From Pseudomonadota bacterium (GTDB lineage: Bacteria; Pseudomonadota; Gammaproteobacteria; Burkholderiales; Methylophilaceae): a stretch of DNA of 37,768 nucleotides. The position numbers were made by a program, and so were the translations under genes. The notes under the pieces were generated by a model that ran no database searches, had not been told where the DNA came from, and saw nothing but the letters and a program-made list of their open reading frames with translations. Location: NCBI GenBank assembly GCA_027621535.1, contig JAQCBB010000009.1, positions 1 to 37,768 on the forward strand. Reading direction: 5' to 3'. Positions 24,987 through 33,752 of this stretch are shown here, one piece after another; position 1 is the stretch's first letter, and the number at the start of each line of letters is the position of its first letter.

Positions 24987-26024
24987 TCAACCTTTTTCAA
25001 CAAAATTTTCAATAATCATAAAATGTTTTACTTCATCTAAAGTAAAGTTATCAAAAATTAAATTATCATTCTTTGCTTGATTTAATCGAATTTGATTAAA
25101 ATTTTGTGATTTTATATTTTTTGGATCAACTCGATCAAGGAGTTCATCAACGGTATTAGGCTCATTACAAATTAATACAATATTGCATCCAGCATCAAAT
25201 GCCTCCAAGACGCGATCGTAAATGTCTGGAATGTAGTCGGCAACCCCTCTCATACTCAAGTCATCTGAAATCACTACTCCTTTAAATTTTAAAATTTTTC
25301 TCAAGTATTCTAAAATCCATTTTTTTGAAAGGCTAGCAGGCTTTATATCAACTTGATTATAAATTACATGACTTGGCATTAATGCAGCAATATCCTCATT
25401 AATAAAAGTTTTAAAACAACTTAAGTCGTCAGACATTTCTTCAATCGTTCTTAAATCTGTTGATATCTCATAATGAGAATCATTAGGGATAAAACCATGT
25501 CCAGGAAAATGTTTCCCAACAGCTGACATGCCCCCAGCATTTAGGCCATTTATAAATTGTTTAGCCAGATAAATCACTGTCTGAGCATTATTTGAAAAAG
25601 ATCGATTACCTATAACACTACTTTTTCCGTAATTAATATCCAAAACGGGTGAAAAATTTAAATCTATTCCGACCTCTCCAAGCTCTTTGGCAATAAGCCA
25701 ACCAGAATATCTAGCCAACCTCATAGCTAGGGTTTGATCTTGATTAAAAATATCTCCTAATCTACCCATTGCTGGCAATAAGAAAAATTCTTCCTTAAAT
25801 CTTTGTACCCTCCCTCCCTCATGGTCGACAGATATAAGCAAATCGGTTCTGACTAGCTTTATTTGTTTAATTAACTCTGATAACTGTGCTTTATTTTTGT
25901 AATTTCTTGAAAAAAGAATAACCCCACAGACCAAAGGGTGAGAAATTCTATTTATATCTTCCTGGGATAGCTCATAACCTACAACATCAGTCAAAATAGA
26001 GCTTTTTAGCATTAAAGTTTCCAT
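24987..26024 (-). CDS. nagZ: Beta-N-acetylglucosaminidase NagZ (GH3)
   Basis: Cytoplasmic glycoside hydrolase family 3 enzyme that removes GlcNAc from 1,6-anhydro-muropeptides during peptidoglycan recycling. Motifs: SVDHEGGRVQRF at 65-76, the KHFPGHG loop at 171-177, the Asp182-Ser-His184 general acid/base dyad, and the nucleophile Asp254 in ISDDLSM. The 345-residue length is normal and there is no signal peptide. The ORF start overlaps the upstream gene by 13 bp. A second ATG (26012) sits in TAATG with GGA 7-8 nt before it and may be the real start. It closes a chain including peptide-transport genes and a YkuD enzyme. Confidence 0.95.
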   Translation of the reverse strand: METLMLKSSILTDVVGYELSQEDINRISHPLVCGVILFSRNYKNKAQLSELIKQIKLVRTDLLISVDHEGGRVQRFKEEFFLLPAMGRLGDIFNQDQTLAMRLARYSGWLIAKELGEVGIDLNFSPVLDINYGKSSVIGNRSFSNNAQTVIYLAKQFINGLNAGGMSAVGKHFPGHGFIPNDSHYEISTDLRTIEEMSDDLSCFKTFINEDIAALMPSHVIYNQVDIKPASLSKKWILEYLRKILKFKGVVISDDLSMRGVADYIPDIYDRVLEAFDAGCNIVLICNEPNTVDELLDRVDPKNIKSQNFNQIRLNQAKNDNLIFDNFTLDEVKHFMIIENFVEKG

Positions 26025-26719
26025 GTAAAAGGATTAAAATTTGTCCTGTGATCATAATGATCAATACCCTCTTTTATTTTAAGGAAATTTATTATTTTGT
26101 AAATAAAGGGGGTGAAGGCAACCTCTACCAAAGTTTTTGCAAAGAACTGGGCAACTACAACAAGCCAAATTTTATCATTTGGGATCACACCTGAATTGTA
26201 AAATGCTAATGGATAAAAAATAATGGAATCCACGCCCTCTCCTGCTATGGTTGAAGAAATAGTTCTTAACCACAAGAATTTTCCTTGTGTCCATATTTTC
26301 ATCTTAGCCATTACCCACGAATTTATAAACTCCCCAGCAGCAAAAGCAATTAATCCCGCTAACGCAACTCGCCATGCCGACCCGAAGGCAATTTCATAAA
26401 CCTCTTGATTCTCCCAAAAAGATGCGGGAGGAAGAGCCACTATCATCCATGCCATAAATGATGCAAATGCTAATCCAGCAAATCCAGTCCATATAACTCG
26501 TCTAGATGCACTATATCCATAAACTTCAGTTAAGATGTCGCCAAAAATAAAAGAGATAGGGAAAAATAAAACTCCAGCTCCAAAGGTAATTGTTCCAATT
26601 AAAGGAAGATCAAGTTGTGAAATTTTTGCGGGTCCAATAATATTCGCTGTAATTAGTACCGTAACAAATGCAGCCATAACCAAATCGTAGTAACGATAAT
26701 TTTTACGGAGTTTACTCAT
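26012..26719 (-). CDS. Queuosine precursor transporter (YhhQ / VUT family)
   Basis: Integral membrane protein of 235 residues with about six hydrophobic helices, matching the vitamin-uptake-transporter/YhhQ family that imports queuosine precursors (preQ0/preQ1) for tRNA modification. Family patterns include ANIIGPAKI near the first helix, FPISFIFGDILTEVYGY near 53-69, AGEFINSWVMAKMKIWTQGKFLWLR split over 128-152, and STIAGEGVDSIIFY. The ATG overlaps the upstream permease stop in ATGAGTAA (8 nt). Its place between peptide permeases and nagZ has no obvious functional logic. Confidence 0.9.
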   Translation of the reverse strand: MSKLRKNYRYYDLVMAAFVTVLITANIIGPAKISQLDLPLIGTITFGAGVLFFPISFIFGDILTEVYGYSASRRVIWTGFAGLAFASFMAWMIVALPPASFWENQEVYEIAFGSAWRVALAGLIAFAAGEFINSWVMAKMKIWTQGKFLWLRTISSTIAGEGVDSIIFYPLAFYNSGVIPNDKIWLVVVAQFFAKTLVEVAFTPFIYKIINFLKIKEGIDHYDHRTNFNPFTWKL

Positions 26720-27491
26720 TGATATATTTCTTTAAACCTTCGCCTATCGAATTAAAAGATAGAATCATTAAAATCATACACAGAGAGACCATGATCACAT
26801 AATGTGGTGCTACTAATAAATAGTCAATACTGTCTCTGAGCATGCCACCCCATGATGGAAAGGGAGAAGACAAACCTAGGCCAAGAAAAGCCAACCCTGC
26901 TTCAGCTACAATTAAATTAGCGATGGTAAAATTTAATTCAACTGACAAAGGCGCTAAAATGTTAGGGATAATATGTTTATGAATAATTCTATTTCTATCT
27001 GCTCCCATCAGTATAGCTGCTTTAACAAAATCAGATTCTCTAATTGATAAAGTTTGACTTCTTGCTATTCTGGCAAATCCAATCCAAGCTGTAACAGTCA
27101 AGGCAAATAAGATATTCCAAAAACTCGTTTCCAAAAAAGCAGCTAACCCAATAATTAAAAGAATTCCAGGAAATGCTTGAACAATAGTCATCCCGCTAGT
27201 AATAATTTGATCAACAGGTCCCCTAAAGTAACCTGCAATACACCCCAAACAAATTCCCATCAAAAATGAAATGGATGTTGCTAAAACAACAATCTCAAAA
27301 GAGACTAGAAAACCATTAATCAAACGTATCAAGATATCTCGCCCATAATCATCATAGCCAAAGAATCCTCTAAAGCCAGGTGGTTTTAAAATTAAATCAA
27401 AATTCATTCCATAAGGATCCCACCCAAGAAAATTATTCAAAACCACAAGAATAAAAAAAAGTGATGGAAAAATTAGGCCAATTTTATTCAT
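26712..27491 (-). CDS. Oligopeptide-type ABC transporter permease (OppC/DppC family)
   Basis: Second membrane subunit of a peptide/nickel-type ABC importer: 259 residues with about six membrane helices. An N-terminal periplasmic stretch contains GYDDYGRDILIRLI, close to the family's GTDxxGRD motif. The cytoplasmic EAA loop reads KAAILMGADRNRIIHKHIIPN (split near 167-187) and should contact the ATPase. The conserved LGLGLSSPFPSWGGML segment follows near 223-238. It overlaps the OppB-like gene by 8 bp (ATGAATAA). No ATP-binding subunit is encoded nearby. Confidence 0.92.
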   Translation of the reverse strand: MNKIGLIFPSLFFILVVLNNFLGWDPYGMNFDLILKPPGFRGFFGYDDYGRDILIRLINGFLVSFEIVVLATSISFLMGICLGCIAGYFRGPVDQIITSGMTIVQAFPGILLIIGLAAFLETSFWNILFALTVTAWIGFARIARSQTLSIRESDFVKAAILMGADRNRIIHKHIIPNILAPLSVELNFTIANLIVAEAGLAFLGLGLSSPFPSWGGMLRDSIDYLLVAPHYVIMVSLCMILMILSFNSIGEGLKKYINE

Positions 27492-28410
27492 GATAAGTTT
27501 TTATTCTAGGATCTAATTTTAAATATATGAATTCAAGCATAAAATTAATAGTTACATAACTAATTGCTATAAAAAAAACAGCAGCCTGAGTAATTGGATA
27601 ATCGCGCTGATGAATTGAATCAATGAGAAGTTTACCTATTCCATTCCAACTAAAAATCATTTCAGTAATGATAGTTCCCGACAACAAGCCACCTAACTGA
27701 AGACCTATTGCCGTAACAATTGGAAGACTAATTAATTTTATGACATGAGTAAAGTATATATAGGATAGATTTAAACCTTTTGATTTTGCAGCAATAATAA
27801 GAACAGAATCTTTTAGCTCTTCAGAAGAATCCATTGTCATTTTAACGAGATACGCAATAAAACTAATAGATAAAGTTGCTGCTGGTAACAATATTGAGGA
27901 TGGTTGTTCCATGCCGCTTACTGGAAGTAAATCTAAAAACATCGCGAAAAATAAAATTAAAATAGGAGCTAAAATAAATGATGGAATAGCAATTAAAATG
28001 GCGTTTACACATTTTATTATTTGATTCAAAAAACTTCTATTGATATACGATACAAATAGGCCAAAAGGAATACTAATAACAACTGCCATTGAAATTGATA
28101 AAATTGCCAATAAAGCAGTGTTTATTAGAGCAGGTTTTAGTAAAAATAGAACATCAATATTCTGGTGAATTGACAGACCAAAATCTAACTGAAAGAGATT
28201 TTTCAAAGCTTTAAACACTTGCTCAGATATTGATAAATCCAAGCCAAGATGTTCCTTAATTTGATTTACATCAGCAGAAAAATTACTTTGACCGACAAGA
28301 AAATCAATTGGATCACCAGGAACAAGACGGATTAAAAAAAAAGTTATCAAATAAACAGAAAATATTAAAAATATGTAATGAAAAATTATTTTTAACCAAT
28401 AATTATTCAT
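27484..28410 (-). CDS. Oligopeptide-type ABC transporter permease (OppB/DppB family)
   Basis: First membrane subunit of the peptide importer: 308 residues, one N-terminal helix (about 9-28), the FFLIRLVPGDP motif at 25-35, then five helices. The EAA loop is IAAKSKGLNLSYIYFTHVIK (near 202-221), followed by a family-typical LSGTIITEMIFSWNGIGKLL segment and RDYP. It overlaps the YkuD gene and the OppC-like gene by 8 bp each (both ATGAATAA), which suggests translational coupling of transporter and enzyme. Confidence 0.93.
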   Translation of the reverse strand: MNNYWLKIIFHYIFLIFSVYLITFFLIRLVPGDPIDFLVGQSNFSADVNQIKEHLGLDLSISEQVFKALKNLFQLDFGLSIHQNIDVLFLLKPALINTALLAILSISMAVVISIPFGLFVSYINRSFLNQIIKCVNAILIAIPSFILAPILILFFAMFLDLLPVSGMEQPSSILLPAATLSISFIAYLVKMTMDSSEELKDSVLIIAAKSKGLNLSYIYFTHVIKLISLPIVTAIGLQLGGLLSGTIITEMIFSWNGIGKLLIDSIHQRDYPITQAAVFFIAISYVTINFMLEFIYLKLDPRIKTYHE

Positions 28411-28870
28411 TAATTAATACCCTCTCACCAATTGATACAAGCTGGAATAAGATAATGACATCTTCATTGAGCATTCGAATGCACCCATGGGATGCAGGCT
28501 GACCAATTTTTTCCTCTTCATGTGTTCCATGAATGTAGATAAATCTTTGCATGGTATCAACATCTCCGAGTCGATTAAAACCGACCTGTGTTCCAGATAA
28601 CCATAATATTCTTGAAAGAATTAAATCATTCGAATCATAATCTTTATTTTTATTCCATACATCCCCTGTCCATCGTCTTGCTTTGAAAATTCCATATTTT
28701 GGAACATCAGTTCCAATTTTGGCACGAACAGTATGTTCGCCGAGAGGAGTACAATAGCTACCCTTAATTTGTCCTAATCCTCGACTTGATGAAGAAATTG
28801 AAAAAATAGTTGAGAGGCCATTTTTTCCAATATGTTCAAGAGTTTGATTTTGAATAAAAATGTTAATCAT
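28403..28870 (-). CDS. YkuD-domain protein, likely cytoplasmic L,D-carboxypeptidase
   Basis: The L,D-transpeptidase catalytic (YkuD) domain fills the whole 155 residues. The active-site motif SHGCIRM is at 127-133 (catalytic Cys130, His128), with the upstream histidine His114 in IYIHGT. The family-typical RILWLSG and GDVDTMQRF strands precede it. There is no signal peptide, membrane helix or LysM domain, unlike cross-linking Ldt enzymes. Signal-less YkuD enzymes such as A. baumannii ElsL and V. cholerae LdcV are cytoplasmic L,D-carboxypeptidases of murein recycling, and I infer the same here. It is embedded between the binding protein and permeases of a peptide importer, with 8-bp overlaps on both sides, and nagZ lies downstream. 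Confidence 0.85.
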   Translation of the reverse strand: MINIFIQNQTLEHIGKNGLSTIFSISSSSRGLGQIKGSYCTPLGEHTVRAKIGTDVPKYGIFKARRWTGDVWNKNKDYDSNDLILSRILWLSGTQVGFNRLGDVDTMQRFIYIHGTHEEEKIGQPASHGCIRMLNEDVIILFQLVSIGERVLINE

Positions 28871-30290
28871 TTTTTCTTATATGACTTAAATCGACCCAAC
28901 TTCCATCAAGATATAAACGATAGTTACTAATTGAAGGGAGCGTTGCCATAAAATTTCCCTCAAACCATAAAGGTAACATTAATATATCCTCATGCATCAG
29001 AGTAACAACATTTTGCCAATTATTTTTCTCTAAAGCATTATTAATTAAATTGTCCATCTCTAAGCTTTCATAAAATCCCCGGTTTAATCCAAAAGGGGGT
29101 GTCATTTTTGAAAAGAAAATTTGTTTATATATTTCTGGAGATTTCAATCCAACCCAGGTCAAAGCATATATTTGAAAGTTTCCATTCTGAATGTCCTTAT
29201 AAAAAGTGCTCCAATCAAGACTTTTGATTTTTAGATTAATGCCTACCTGTTTTAATTGAGATTGAATAATAGTGGCTATTTTTATTCTAAAAGGATCTGT
29301 TGATGTCTTAAGCTCTAAATTTATAGGTAATTGATAGCCCGCCTCTACTAATATCTGCTTACTTAACTGAGGATTAAAATCATAATTTTTTAATTCTGTA
29401 TATGCCCAATGCTCGCTGGTAAAAAGTTGGTTTGCTAATTTAGTTTGTTCATTAAAGAAATATTGAATAATTTCTTTTTGGTTTATTGCATGAGCAATAG
29501 CTTTTCTGATCGCTTTATCTTTTACTAAATGATCTTGATGATTAAATCCAATATAAGAAACATTATGTCCTGATTTTGTTTCCGTATAAATTCCTCTTTT
29601 ATTTTGAAGTAATTTTATAATTGGTAATGGAAGATCATTTTGTAATAAATCAATCTCTCGATTAATAATCTTCAATGCTCTTACTGAGGGATCTTTAATT
29701 TCAATAAACTTAACTATCAAACCATCTGATCTTTCTATCAACACATTAGGTTTTGTTTCTAAGATTTTAAAATTTCCTGATCCTAAAGATGTTAATGATA
29801 AATCAACCCCCAATTCTTTTATATTAAAAGGAATGATGGGAAGGCAAAGCTTGTATAGAAAATATGGGTCATTATTTTTAAGTTTAATCAGAATGTTATT
29901 TTTTGATAATTGAATTGATTCAATAATATTTAAGTCCTCGTGAAACTTTGATAAAGGATTATCAATATTAGATTGAATGCTAAACAAGATATCTTTTTCG
30001 GTTAATTTTTGTCCATTGGAAAAAAAATTGTTAAATTGCTTAATTTTTAAAAGATAACTTTTATTGTTAATTTTCTCATATTCGATAAAATCAGAAGTCA
30101 GGTTAAATGCAAAATCTAAATCAAAAATTTTCTCATATACCAAGTCAACAATTTTTTCTGACGCAGCATCACGGTTTAAATGAGGATGAAGATTCTGAGG
30201 ATTTTGTGCTATTCCAAATGTTAATATTTCTGAATACACAGCTACTGAAAATAATGAAAAAAATAAAAAAAATAAAAATTTATTTGCCAT
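28863..30290 (-). CDS. Periplasmic oligopeptide-binding protein (SBP_bac_5 family)
   Basis: Extracytoplasmic solute-binding protein of the OppA/DppA/MppA family. From the ATG at 30290 it has a signal peptide (ANKFLFFLFFSLFSVAVYS) and 475 residues, shorter than OppA (543). Family features: TFGIAQNPQNLHPHL at the mature start, a TEKDILFSIQ segment, the AIRKAIAHAINQKEII helix near 258-273 and the LTWVGLKSPEIYKQIFFS region near 380-397. A TTG at 30314 would add 8 residues before the signal peptide and is less likely. The start lies inside the end of rlmD (11-bp overlap). Its ligand is unknown; the linked YkuD and NagZ genes suggest murein peptides, as for MppA. Confidence 0.9.
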   Translation of the reverse strand: MANKFLFFLFFSLFSVAVYSEILTFGIAQNPQNLHPHLNRDAASEKIVDLVYEKIFDLDFAFNLTSDFIEYEKINNKSYLLKIKQFNNFFSNGQKLTEKDILFSIQSNIDNPLSKFHEDLNIIESIQLSKNNILIKLKNNDPYFLYKLCLPIIPFNIKELGVDLSLTSLGSGNFKILETKPNVLIERSDGLIVKFIEIKDPSVRALKIINREIDLLQNDLPLPIIKLLQNKRGIYTETKSGHNVSYIGFNHQDHLVKDKAIRKAIAHAINQKEIIQYFFNEQTKLANQLFTSEHWAYTELKNYDFNPQLSKQILVEAGYQLPINLELKTSTDPFRIKIATIIQSQLKQVGINLKIKSLDWSTFYKDIQNGNFQIYALTWVGLKSPEIYKQIFFSKMTPPFGLNRGFYESLEMDNLINNALEKNNWQNVVTLMHEDILMLPLWFEGNFMATLPSISNYRLYLDGSWVDLSHIRKND

Positions 30291-31593
30291 ATTCAAACAC
30301 TGAAATGGATTCAATATGTGAAGTGTTTGGAAACATATTTAATATTCCAGAACCTTTAAATTTATAGCCTTTTTCAAACACTAAAATATTTGCATCTCTT
30401 GCAAAAGAACCTGGATTACAGGAAATATAAACAATTTTTTTAGGCTGAGAAGTATCCGGTGAAATCAATTGAATTAATTGCATTGCACCGTCTCGAGGAG
30501 GATCAATGAGCCATTTGTTTGATTGCTTATGCCTTTTTAAATATTGGTTATCAAGTTCAAATAAATTCTGATATGTGAATTGAATATTATTTAATCCATT
30601 AAGCTTTGCATTTGCTTCACCTAGCCTTACCAGTTGCTCACTTCCCTCAACACCCTCAACCCGATTAGCAAACTTTGCTATAGGAAGTGTAAAGTTTCCA
30701 AGTCCTGAAAAAAAATCAGAAACAATGTCCTCTGAGCTAAGGTCAAGCAATTCAACAGCCCTGGGAATCATAAGCTCATTAATAAATGGGTTAATTTGAA
30801 TAAAACCAGTTGGATCAAATTCAATATTTAAATTAAATTCATTTAATCGATAGCTAATTTTTTTCTTTTGTTGATCATGAAATAGAGGTTTAGCAGTCTC
30901 AGGGCCTTTTTCTTGCACCCAAACTTCAATATTGAAATCAGACTGAAATTGCTCAAATTTATTTATATCGTCCTTTGTCAGTTGGTCAAGAATTCTAAAA
31001 ATAAAAATGTCTCTTTTTTGATTTGAAGCATACTCAATTTGCGGCATTTTATTAAAGATAGATAAATTTTTAAGTAGATCTTTTAGTGGCTTTATGGATT
31101 TTGAAATTCTCTCTGGCAATATTGGGCACTGATCCATATCTGTTAAAAAATGCGTTAATCGCTCATTAAATCCTACCAAAACTTTATCTTTTTTTTCTAC
31201 GAATTTAGCCCTTAATCTAGCTTTATGTCTGTAATTTAAAAAACTCAAGGAAACAGGCTCAAAAACTATTTCTGGTTTAACTTTACCTATGCGTTCTAAG
31301 GTTTTAAAAAAAGCTTGGTGCTTAAAATTTATCTGGGCATTATTTGAAAAATGCTGCATTGAACATCCGCCACATTGAGTATAGTGTTCGCAAGCTGGAT
31401 CGGTTCGGTCTGGAGAAGGATTAGTAATTTTAATCGCAGCTGCATAGTAAATATTTTTTTTCTTTTTTAAAACATTAATTTCAACTTTCTCGCCAATCAA
31501 AGCATTGTGAATAAAAAAAGTTTTATCTTTATTTTTCGCAACGCCCCTTCCGTCTTGATCAATATCAACAATCTCTAAAAGTTCATCACTCAT
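30280..31593 (-). CDS. rlmD: 23S rRNA (uracil-1939-C5)-methyltransferase RlmD (RumA)
   Basis: SAM-dependent enzyme making m5U1939 in 23S rRNA. The N-terminal TRAM domain (about 1-58) has EIVDIDQDGRGVA. The [4Fe-4S] ligands are Cys68, Cys74, Cys77 (ACEHYTQCGGCSMQH) and a Cys in DMDQCPIL near 158. The SAM-binding core includes DFFSGLGNFTLPIA, and IDPPRDGA plus YISCNPGSFARD carries the catalytic cysteine. The 437-residue length is typical. It needs an Fe-S cluster, supplied by the isc products. It overlaps the exonuclease gene by 8 bp (ATGAGTGA). Confidence 0.96.
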   Translation of the reverse strand: MSDELLEIVDIDQDGRGVAKNKDKTFFIHNALIGEKVEINVLKKKKNIYYAAAIKITNPSPDRTDPACEHYTQCGGCSMQHFSNNAQINFKHQAFFKTLERIGKVKPEIVFEPVSLSFLNYRHKARLRAKFVEKKDKVLVGFNERLTHFLTDMDQCPILPERISKSIKPLKDLLKNLSIFNKMPQIEYASNQKRDIFIFRILDQLTKDDINKFEQFQSDFNIEVWVQEKGPETAKPLFHDQQKKKISYRLNEFNLNIEFDPTGFIQINPFINELMIPRAVELLDLSSEDIVSDFFSGLGNFTLPIAKFANRVEGVEGSEQLVRLGEANAKLNGLNNIQFTYQNLFELDNQYLKRHKQSNKWLIDPPRDGAMQLIQLISPDTSQPKKIVYISCNPGSFARDANILVFEKGYKFKGSGILNMFPNTSHIESISVFEYGK

Positions 31594-32374
31594 TTTTTTC
31601 CCAAGCCATCTTAAATTCTTGCAAGTGATTATGATTTGAACTGCTAATTTTTAATTTAACTTTTTCAATTTCAGATTCATACTCTTCCTGAGTTAATTGA
31701 TCTCTAATTAAACATAGCCTGAGGAATATAAGATAGGTATTCAGAACATCTGTTTCACAATAAGCTCTTATTTCGTCAATCTTACCTTGTTGGAAATTGA
31801 AAAAAACATCCGAACCGTCCATGTCTAATTTACCTGGAAAATCACATAGCTTGGCAATATCATCCAAAGAAGCATTTGCTCTACCGCCAAATAGAGCTAG
31901 AAAATCCATAACATCAAGGTGTCTGGCATGATAGCGATTAATATAATTATTGTATTTAAAATCGTTATTTATCTCACCCTGATCAAGATAGATTCCACCG
32001 CTGACTTGATTAATTAAAGCTCGATAATTAATCACCGGAAGATCAAACCCAGACCCATTCCAGGTAACTAAGGTCGGCACAAATCGATTCAATCCATCAA
32101 AAAAACGTTCTAATAATTCCTTCTCATTACTCTCTGAGTTACCAATAGACCATATCTCAAAATTAATTCCTTGTTTAAGGACGCATGAAATAGCAATAAT
32201 TTTTTGAAATTGTAGAGGAAGAAAATCTGTCCCTTTTTTTTGCCGATAATGGTAATTGGCTATTGAAACAACATCCTGATCATTGAAATTTTCAGAAATA
32301 TGAAGAGTTTTTCTTAAACCCTCAACATCAGGGATTGTTTCCGTATCAAATACAAGCGTAGTTGGCAAAATCAT
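31586..32374 (-). CDS. Predicted 3'-5' exonuclease, DEDDy family
   Basis: RNase H-like exonuclease of the DNA_pol_B_exo2 type, 262 residues. The exo motifs are visible: Asp10-Thr-Glu12 in VFDTETIPD (exo I), NGSGFDLPVI with Asp111 (exo II), and YCETDV with Tyr205 and Asp209 (exo III), making it DEDDy. There is no polymerase domain. Its biological substrate is not known. It lies between cysM and rlmD with overlaps of 4 and 8 bp, an arrangement I recall from other betaproteobacteria, but nothing in the neighbourhood defines its role. Confidence 0.85.
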   Translation of the reverse strand: MILPTTLVFDTETIPDVEGLRKTLHISENFNDQDVVSIANYHYRQKKGTDFLPLQFQKIIAISCVLKQGINFEIWSIGNSESNEKELLERFFDGLNRFVPTLVTWNGSGFDLPVINYRALINQVSGGIYLDQGEINNDFKYNNYINRYHARHLDVMDFLALFGGRANASLDDIAKLCDFPGKLDMDGSDVFFNFQQGKIDEIRAYCETDVLNTYLIFLRLCLIRDQLTQEEYESEIEKVKLKISSSNHNHLQEFKMAWEKNE

Positions 32375-33270
32375 GAGCTTGGGAACAGGCCCGTGGAAAG
32401 ATAACGGTCTCCTCGATCACATGCTATTGAAACAATAATTGCATCAGGATTTTTTTTAGCCAACATGAGAGCGACATAAAGCGCTCCCCCAGTCGATGCA
32501 CCAGAGAAAATTCCCTCAAATCTGGCCAGATCTCTGGCAGTTTGTTCAGCATGTTCCTGTGAAACATACATAATTTTATCAATATTTTCTTCAGTAAAAA
32601 TTTTTGGTATATATTCAATGGGCCATTTTCTTATCCCTGGAATCTGAGACCCCTCCTCTGGTTGAACGCCAATAATTTGGATATCTTGATTTTGTTCTTT
32701 TAAAAATTTTGATGTGCCAACAATAGTTCCTGTTGTGCCCATGCTAGAAACAAAATGAGTAACTTTTTGTTTTGTATCTCTCCAAATTTCTGGACCCGTT
32801 CCCTCATAATGAGCTCTTGGGTTATCTGAGTTCGCAAATTGATCTAAAATAACCCCCCTTCCCTCAGTTTGAAGTTTCTCTGCTGTGTCTCTTGCTAGCT
32901 CCATGCTTCCCTCTTTACTGGTAAGGATTAATTCAGCTCCATAAGCCATCATGGTCTGTCTTCTCTCTATTGATTGATTTTCAGGCATAACCAGGATCAT
33001 TCTGTATCCCATAACTGCGGCAGCCATTGCAAGAGCAATCCCTGTATTTCCGGATGTAGCCTCAATTAACGTATCACCAGGCTTTATCATTCCCTTTTTT
33101 TGAGCATTTACTATCATTGACATTGCCGGTCTATCCTTTACAGATCCAGCTGGATTATTACCTTCAAGCTTCAAAAGAACAGTACCGTAATTAGGCTCTA
33201 CTAATCTTTTAAGCTGCACTAGAGGGGTATTACCTATTAAATTTTCTAAATAATTAAATTGGTTGCTCAA
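32371..33270 (-). CDS. cysM: Cysteine synthase B (CysM)
   Basis: PLP enzyme making cysteine (or S-sulfocysteine from thiosulfate) from O-acetylserine. The N-terminal IGNTPLVQL is at 12-20, the PLP lysine is Lys45 in GSVKDRPA, and EATSGNTGIALAMAA is near 69-83. SMGTTGTIVGTSKFLKE and the C-terminal GIFSGASTGGA follow. The 299-residue length and the short C-terminus indicate CysM rather than CysK. The start is TTG within TTGA, overlapping the dsbB stop; an in-frame stop lies 12 codons or fewer upstream with no ATG between. Its substrate comes from CysE, encoded at 17264. Confidence 0.95.
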   Translation of the reverse strand: MSNQFNYLENLIGNTPLVQLKRLVEPNYGTVLLKLEGNNPAGSVKDRPAMSMIVNAQKKGMIKPGDTLIEATSGNTGIALAMAAAVMGYRMILVMPENQSIERRQTMMAYGAELILTSKEGSMELARDTAEKLQTEGRGVILDQFANSDNPRAHYEGTGPEIWRDTKQKVTHFVSSMGTTGTIVGTSKFLKEQNQDIQIIGVQPEEGSQIPGIRKWPIEYIPKIFTEENIDKIMYVSQEHAEQTARDLARFEGIFSGASTGGALYVALMLAKKNPDAIIVSIACDRGDRYLSTGLFPSS

Positions 33271-33752
33271 TGTGTGTTTCTCTTATAGTTTGTATAAGTC
33301 ATAGCTATTAAAATTAAAAACCAAATTGCCGACCATTCCGGAATCGTAATTCCTAAAAAACTCCAATCAATTTCTGAACAGTCTCCCGTTCCCCGAAAAA
33401 TAAGCTCAAACACCTCTCTCAATGGAAAATTATCAAACATATATTCAAGGTCAATTCCACATTCAGCAGGAATATTTATAACTTTTCTTTGAATTAATAC
33501 ATGCCTAATAGCAAATATCAATCCTATGAGATTTATCATTCCTAAAATAGATAACTCTATAATTTTATTCATTGGTTTAAAATAAAATATAAGAAATGTA
33601 ATGCCTGAAGTTAGAAAAATAACTCTTTGAGTAATGCATAATGGACAGGGTTCAAGATTAAAAATTTCTTGAATAATTACACTTAATATTACAAGGAGTA
33701 TAATGAAAATTCCCGAAATTAACTTAAGATGGTCCATGAAAATATTTTTCAT
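33267..33752 (-). CDS. dsbB: Disulfide bond formation protein DsbB
   Basis: Inner-membrane oxidoreductase that reoxidises DsbA and passes electrons to quinones. Four membrane helices are visible (about 9-30, 42-58, 67-88 and 138-155). The first periplasmic pair is Cys36-Pro-Leu-Cys39 (EPCPLC) followed by the conserved QR, and the second pair is Cys98 and Cys125. The 161-residue length is typical. It is the first gene of the minus-strand chain and divergent from xseA. No clear Shine-Dalgarno precedes the ATG. Confidence 0.93.
   Translation of the reverse strand: MKNIFMDHLKLISGIFIILLVILSVIIQEIFNLEPCPLCITQRVIFLTSGITFLIFYFKPMNKIIELSILGMINLIGLIFAIRHVLIQRKVINIPAECGIDLEYMFDNFPLREVFELIFRGTGDCSEIDWSFLGITIPEWSAIWFLILIAMTYTNYKRNTH

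Follow-up and report, generated by a model that had tools for sequence, protein, structure and literature searches.

Importers of the ATP-binding cassette (ABC) type that carry murein peptides and are linked to processing genes have been described in several bacteria, namely MppA/Opp of Escherichia coli, YejBEF-YepA of Agrobacterium tumefaciens and the Dpp system with DppE of Bacillus subtilis. Here we compare these systems with a run of six genes, sbp-ykuD-oppB-oppC-yhhQ-nagZ, in a member of the Methylophilaceae with a genome of 1.33 Mb (assembly GCA_027621535.1); the run lies on the minus strand of contig JAQCBB010000009.1, the whole stretch analyzed, 37,768 nucleotides in length, being referred to as the window. 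A first-pass annotation made from the sequence alone had interpreted this run as an operon that imports murein peptides and processes them on arrival. Comparison of relatives and family searches suggest that the operon probably imports a peptidoglycan-derived substrate for recycling. The narrower claim that this substrate is a free murein peptide is more tentative, falling somewhat short of an even chance; we nevertheless place it first, with a muropeptide as its close rival.

In E. coli, MppA is described as a cluster-C solute-binding protein (SBP) that is encoded apart from the permeases and ATPases which it uses, those of OppBCDF (PMC6022919, PMC10009517). The gene mpaA, annotated as a murein tripeptide amidase, lies near mppA, and the 7 kb that surround mppA contain no annotated YkuD gene and no annotated nagZ. 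The MppA/Opp system coexists with the permease AmpG in this bacterium. YejBEF-YepA likewise is reported to be an ABC importer that uses a separately encoded peptide-type SBP and feeds murein recycling, YepA being a YejA-like, alphaproteobacterial protein and the system replacing AmpG in the import of anhydromuropeptides (PMC9790009). The operon in the window differs in that AmpG is present in its genome and in that its proteins belong to another Opp/Dpp branch. The B. subtilis Dpp system is described as an ABC importer whose SBP, DppE, binds murein tripeptide and which is encoded together with genes implicated in recycling (PMC10009517). Its host is Gram-positive, unlike that of the window. 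The processing enzymes of the B. subtilis ykf genes are an S66-type carboxypeptidase, an epimerase and a peptidase, and we know of no NagZ or YkuD protein encoded in the Dpp operon. As for the YkuD protein, ElsL of Acinetobacter baumannii is likewise reported to be a leaderless YkuD domain with a catalytic Cys that trims tetrapeptides before the action of Mpl; it converts murotetrapeptide to tripeptide in vitro, is placed in the cytoplasm by its authors and is said there to have orthologues mainly in Gamma- and Betaproteobacteria (PMC8649774). By word search, the main text of that paper mentions neither nagZ nor a transporter, whereas ykuD here sits inside an importer operon (PMC8649774). Thus, the operon in the window is distinct in its SBP subfamily, in the YkuD type of its carboxypeptidase, in carrying nagZ and in having its ATPases elsewhere. 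The open-licence literature that was searched yielded neither this exact combination, nor a link between Methylophilaceae and peptidoglycan recycling, nor one between ElsL and oligopeptide. The novelty had been somewhat overstated at the outset: the principle is known, the combination is new.

The six genes encode a family-5 extracytoplasmic SBP of 475 aa with an N-terminal hydrophobic segment (sbp, 28863..30290; PF00496, 9.7e-48), a leaderless YkuD-domain protein of 155 aa that is a predicted cytoplasmic L,D-carboxypeptidase of the ElsL type (ykuD, 28403..28870; PF03734, 2.1e-16), an OppB/DppB-like permease of 308 aa (oppB, 27484..28410; PF00528, BPD_transp_1, 1.6e-29), an OppC/DppC-like permease of 259 aa (oppC, 26712..27491; PF00528, BPD_transp_1, 8.9e-26), a queuosine-precursor transporter of the YhhQ (Vut_1) family of 235 aa (yhhQ, 26012..26719; TIGR00697, 102.6 bits, cut-off 50.95) and the cytoplasmic beta-N-acetylhexosaminidase NagZ of 345 aa (nagZ, 24987..26024; PRK05337 equivalog, 396 bits, cut-off 207; PF00933). 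These assignments, made by Pfam and NCBIfam model searches, confirm the families and coordinates originally given, as well as the single strand and the overlap at every junction (8, 8, 8, 8 and 13 bases, in order). We propose that the SBP would bind, on the periplasmic side, a fragment of the wall that bears a peptide. The most likely ligand would be a free murein tri- or tetrapeptide released by an amidase, a less likely one a muropeptide in which the peptide is linked to N-acetylmuramic acid (MurNAc). OppB and OppC would carry the fragment inward, powered in trans by an OppD/OppF-like pair that is encoded between hisS and bamB. The YkuD protein would then remove the terminal D-Ala of tetrapeptides, with Mpl relinking the resulting tripeptide to UDP-MurNAc, and NagZ would remove N-acetylglucosamine from muropeptides that enter by AmpG or by the operon's own importer. 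AmpG would not carry the free murein tri- or tetrapeptide. YhhQ would be a passenger outside this pathway.

The first-pass annotation had named gene order in relatives as a check, and in close relatives the genes did not prove to be scattered. A search of 61 genomes, the window's own included, found the YkuD protein in 46. Within the genus, all 25 ykuD-carrying loci have sbp upstream and oppB beside ykuD, with the order ykuD-oppB-oppC behind sbp likewise in 25/25, and nagZ lies downstream of ykuD in 24, the contig of the 25th (L059) ending first. A ykuD match is absent from 5 of 30 same-genus relatives, whose assemblies are 47 to 69% complete. In other genera of the Methylophilaceae, ykuD-oppB-oppC is found in 6/6, one of which has a small open reading frame (ORF) between ykuD and oppB; nagZ follows in four of these genera, one contig ends and one carries different genes there, and sbp lies upstream in five, with intervening ORFs in three (L032, L034, L074), the sixth genus (G033) having its SBP behind rlmD on a separate contig. 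It is this conservation of gene order among relatives that speaks against a grouping by chance. The position of yhhQ is less constant: of the 24 same-genus loci extending as far as nagZ, 15 have it between oppC and nagZ, and the gene, although correctly identified at the outset, is an optional and dispensable passenger of the operon. Furthermore, two Methylophilaceae loci (L122, L131) keep rlmD-ykuD-yhhQ-nagZ, with sbp and oppBC missing; no strong match to the window's SBP was found elsewhere in these two genomes, the assemblies of which are incomplete.

In a scan of named genomes that reached beyond the family, a YkuD alignment gave 592 confirmed loci, of which the best 80 were evaluated; 77 of these kept a recognizable ykuD after ORF selection. 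In this sample, oppB follows ykuD directly at 10 loci, nine of them labelled as Methylophilaceae, their genera or unassigned proteobacteria, the tenth being that of Thiomicrospira microaerophila. At 30 of the 77 loci, nagZ follows ykuD directly and the permeases are absent, and 29 of these are labelled as gammaproteobacterial (Pseudomonas, Nitrincola, Hahella, Solimonas, Endozoicomonas and others), with a single one from Rhodospirillales; tadA is found at ykuD in 24/77. The T. microaerophila genome led to its family, the Thiomicrospira family, of which 40 genomes were sampled. Of these, 39 carry a strong match to the SBP subfamily (at least 456 bits in 38; three pieces in G072) and 39 the YkuD protein (a fragment in G101); both are missing from one and the same genome, G089 (1.3 Mb). 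Directly behind ykuD, within 400 bases, oppB is encoded at 37/38 loci, and nagZ lies downstream at 32/38, four of the six misses having only 1.5 kb of flank. In 28/39, the SBP gene and ykuD share a strand and are no more than 10 kb apart. The genes that separate the two are variable (DUF2238, AMMECR1, radical SAM), and at least five loci (L265, L280, L281, L284, L285) have an uninterrupted sbp-ykuD-oppB-oppC-nagZ. The SBP, OppB and OppC of both families each form one clade (support 0.81, 0.98 and 0.96, with few references, 8 or 9). A recent horizontal transfer of the whole cluster between the families was considered and is not supported, because nagZ in both families is nearest to each family's own relatives; this comparison included only one nagZ of the same order from outside Methylophilaceae, and the ykuD tree is unresolved.

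The YkuD protein looks like a cytoplasmic L,D-carboxypeptidase of the ElsL type, because it is leaderless, has ElsL as its best model and is mutually exclusive with LdcA. It consists of a single YkuD domain, PF03734 spanning residues 25-153 of its 155, with Cys130, Gly129 and His114 invariant across 23 aligned sequences. Its N-terminus, judged by eye in the window protein, has no visible hydrophobic signal; in line with the initial description of an enzyme without signal peptide, the sequence holds no export signal, so that the periplasmic placement once raised as a contrary outcome was not encountered. The likening to ElsL is also supported, ElsL being the best NCBIfam model (9e-40), about 100 bits above any transpeptidase model. 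Moreover, a Peptidase_S66 (LdcA) match over the cut-off occurs in none of the 46 YkuD-bearing genomes as against 7 of the 15 without YkuD, an eighth match, in G030, being below the cut-off in a genome from which YkuD is also absent. Among the 43 genomes that are at least 90% complete, none has both proteins, 33 have YkuD only, 7 have LdcA only and 3 have neither (Fisher 3.7e-6); with one genome for each of 25 families, the corresponding counts are 0, 15, 7 and 3 (Fisher 2.5e-4). It is very improbable that the protein is instead an exported L,D-transpeptidase that cross-links murein: such enzymes have the same Pfam domain, but the missing signal, the margin of the ElsL model and the absence of YkuD from LdcA-carrying genomes all speak against it. 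Mpl is encoded in the window's genome (540.9 bits, cut-off 388.7) and scores over the cut-off in 59 of the 61 genomes; AmpG (TIGR00901, 1.4e-139, 463.8 bits, cut-off 350) does so in 58. With AmpG and Mpl in the genome, a route for anhydromuropeptides and the reuse of free tripeptide are both available. Hence, anhydromuropeptides would already have a way in, and the operon's importer would be a second one.

The SBP itself reaches no NCBIfam equivalog cut-off. The first-pass annotation had named a clustering with nickel, haem or general dipeptide binders as a contrary outcome; in a comparison limited to nine references, the SBP forms a branch of its own, a subfamily common to Methylophilaceae and the Thiomicrospira family. 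Its identity to the references is 17-23% (MppA 19%, YejA 19%, E. coli NikA 22%), and the permeases are 27% identical to YejB and 26% to YejE; in each of the three trees, the Yej protein (YejA, YejB or YejE) is the most remote of the references, YepA itself lying outside the comparison. OppB scores best with Opp2B, a model named for nickel, and OppC with Opp4C and Opp2C, all below curated cut-offs. A fold search with the confident AlphaFold2 model of the SBP (predicted local distance difference test score 90.5) matched proteins of the AppA, NikA, DppA and MppA types, which include binders of peptides, nickel and haem, and did not discriminate between them. The Asp of a W-x-x-D motif, which as Asp439 of MppA is reported to bind the free amino group of the tripeptide (PMC6022919), is present in E. 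coli OppA, MppA, DppA and SapA and absent from YejA, NikA, GsiB, AppA and the genome's two other SBPs. With respect to localization, 20 of 24 aligned sequences carry a cysteine where the N-terminal hydrophobic segment ends; it is missing from the other four, namely the window's SBP and its near relatives L050, L051 and L053, so that the protein may have changed from a lipoprotein to a soluble periplasmic form.

No ATPase gene is encoded within the operon, a gap that had been overlooked when the operon was taken to encode the importer. All the parts of an Opp/Dpp-type importer are nonetheless in the genome, with the SBP and two permeases in the operon and two ATPases elsewhere. This genome encodes ATPases of the oligo_HPY type in two places, as two adjacent genes on contig C46 and as a single fused gene on contig C80, the latter adjoining its own SBP and permeases. 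The adjacent pair is an orphan OppD/OppF-like pair of 280 and 260 aa (G000:C46:4741-6365, L098), situated between hisS and yfgM-bamB-der, and in 10/10 loci from ten genomes of the family such a pair occupies this place between hisS and bamB, unaccompanied by a permease or SBP. Six same-genus genomes assembled as single contigs (G001, G003, G006, G008, G015, G018) each have exactly two oligo_HPY matches and two family-5 SBPs, so that two permease sets probably draw on a single ATPase pair, and we infer that the orphan pair works with the SBP and permeases of the operon. In the Thiomicrospira family, ATPases of the oligo_HPY type were found in 16/16 genomes searched, and the 15 that were inspected are fused, with frames of at least 539 aa, and resemble GsiA and YejF.

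Two further SBP-permease sets were observed in the window's genome. One, SBP_bac_5-OppB-OppC on contig C11 (L111:5118-10707), lies between a lytic-transglycosylase-like gene (SLT and LysM domains) and an enoyl-ACP-reductase-like gene; it is without ATPases in 6/6 loci, the enoyl-ACP-reductase-like gene follows in the one locus searched, and the set is a possible second wall-fragment importer. The other is the set with the fused ATPase on C80 (L115), a short contig with a G+C content of 0.32 as against 0.35. Since same-genus genomes mostly have two SBPs, this third set is either accessory or located on a contig of foreign origin.

Several observations weigh against peptidoglycan-recycling import or against particular steps in it. 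The 14 more distant genomes of the same order that have YkuD yielded 15 loci, 13 of them judgeable, and oppB is beside ykuD in none of the 13 (tadA is found in 8), so that the ElsL-type enzyme works without this importer. In the Thiomicrospira family, one locus (L266, from G072) lacks oppB over the 768 bases left after ykuD, and the SBP gene is over 50 kb away from ykuD in 7/39 and located on a different contig in 4/39. The YkuD protein reaches 136 bits where the curated ElsL cut-off is 270; a homologue from Pseudomonas mendocina, encoded next to nagZ, likewise falls short of it (178), which suggests that the cut-off is narrow. The fold search places AppA and NikA-type proteins ahead of MppA, which is at rank 36, and the W-x-x-D Asp is absent from all 60 aligned sequences of the SBP subfamily (the window protein, 29 from Methylophilaceae and 30 from the Thiomicrospira family). 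The link of the ATPase pair to the operon was drawn by elimination only, and an apparent joint loss of that pair and the importer in G062 and G063 (0 matches) was dismissed, as the neighbouring hisS is missing from both assemblies. The proposal of the first-pass annotation thus stands in part: the ElsL type of YkuD, the ykuD-nagZ link and the association of SBP and OppBC with ykuD in two distant families favour it, while free murein peptide as the substrate is called into question by the indiscriminate fold match and the missing Asp.

The missing Asp speaks against binding in the manner of MppA and would suit a MurNAc-linked peptide, which has no need of a residue for a free amino group. The importer could accordingly carry muropeptides that still hold (anhydro)MurNAc, similar to YejBEF-YepA and parallel to AmpG, with NagZ and YkuD both acting directly on the imported molecule; this would be a narrower version of peptidoglycan-recycling import, and we regard it as unlikely, albeit a serious candidate. 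AmpG and YejBEF-YepA are reported to coexist in some bacteria (PMC9790009), but the presence of AmpG would make such an importer redundant, the identity of the SBP to YejA is low, and the ykuD-nagZ pair exists without any importer. Furthermore, the residue does not decide the matter, and its value as proof of an N-blocked ligand is weakened, since AppA, which binds a nonapeptide, and the second SBP of the genome also have no Asp at this position.

It is rather unlikely, in our estimate, that the importer serves ordinary nutritional uptake of di- or oligopeptides and owes its place next to ykuD and nagZ solely to old synteny. In NCBIfam, the SBP and the permeases match best to general Opp, Dpp and nickel models, with scores far below cut-off, the solved relatives are a mixture of peptide, haem and nickel binders, and a wider block with cysM and an exonuclease-like ORF, common to both families, would illustrate that old synteny persists in any case. 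However, ykuD-oppB-oppC persists in the Thiomicrospira family although the genes that separate sbp from ykuD change from locus to locus, SBP and YkuD are jointly missing from one genome of 40, and the two Methylophilaceae that have no SBP and OppBC retained ykuD-yhhQ-nagZ. Import of a metal chelate of the nickel type or of haem is highly improbable: it finds some favour in the Opp2B, Opp4C and Opp2C matches and in the NikA-type structures among the best fold matches, but every score is below curated cut-offs, no nickel enzyme or regulator is among the named genes of the conserved cluster, and the identity to NikA is little different from that to the other references. Peptidoglycan-recycling import, with a free murein peptide as the first candidate, remains the reading that we prefer. 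A more far-reaching proposal, which we consider doubtful, is that this SBP marks out an undescribed subfamily of Opp-type importers with a tie to an ElsL-type carboxypeptidase. Such importers would give peptidoglycan fragments a second dedicated way in, alongside AmpG, in Methylophilaceae and the Thiomicrospira family (AmpG having been scored in the 61-genome set only). Their substrates would be peptides that are linked to MurNAc or N-blocked in some other way, and in streamlined genomes they would share a single orphan ATPase pair with another wall-linked permease set.

Retention of the set in genomes of about 1.3 Mb suggests that wall recycling pays even under strong genome reduction. The operon would show that one genetic unit can provide for both the uptake and the trimming of wall fragments. 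It offers a genetic handle on the problem of assigning substrates, namely which ABC importers carry wall peptides, and the comparative evidence indicates that an ElsL-type YkuD replaces LdcA across 25 families of one order.

With respect to the wider context, the overlapping run does not begin at sbp. It starts upstream at dsbB (33752) and includes cysM and an exonuclease-like ORF (dsbB, cysM and this ORF together covering 31586..33752, minus strand; names read from the sequence, without a family search) and rlmD (30280..31593, minus strand; PRK13168, 498.7 bits, cut-off 458), which overlaps sbp and lies in the same run but outside the function proposed here. All 9 junctions in 24987-33752 overlap, as do 9 of the 25 other same-strand junctions of the window, because of which overlap by itself is only mildly special in so compact a genome. 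A scan for promoters and terminators gave counts equal to those of shuffled sequence (47 vs 45.8 and 5 vs 5.0, respectively), and a repeat scan gave nothing of note. In the Thiomicrospira family, the neighbourhood of sbp often includes a homologue of cysM and sometimes one of the exonuclease-like ORF. Counterparts of one or more of cysM, rlmD and the exonuclease-like ORF were likewise seen upstream of ykuD or sbp at L132, L157, L158, L172 and L251-L290, which cover Solimonas, other gammaproteobacterial records and many Thiomicrospira-family loci, and this shared neighbourhood points to an old synteny block.

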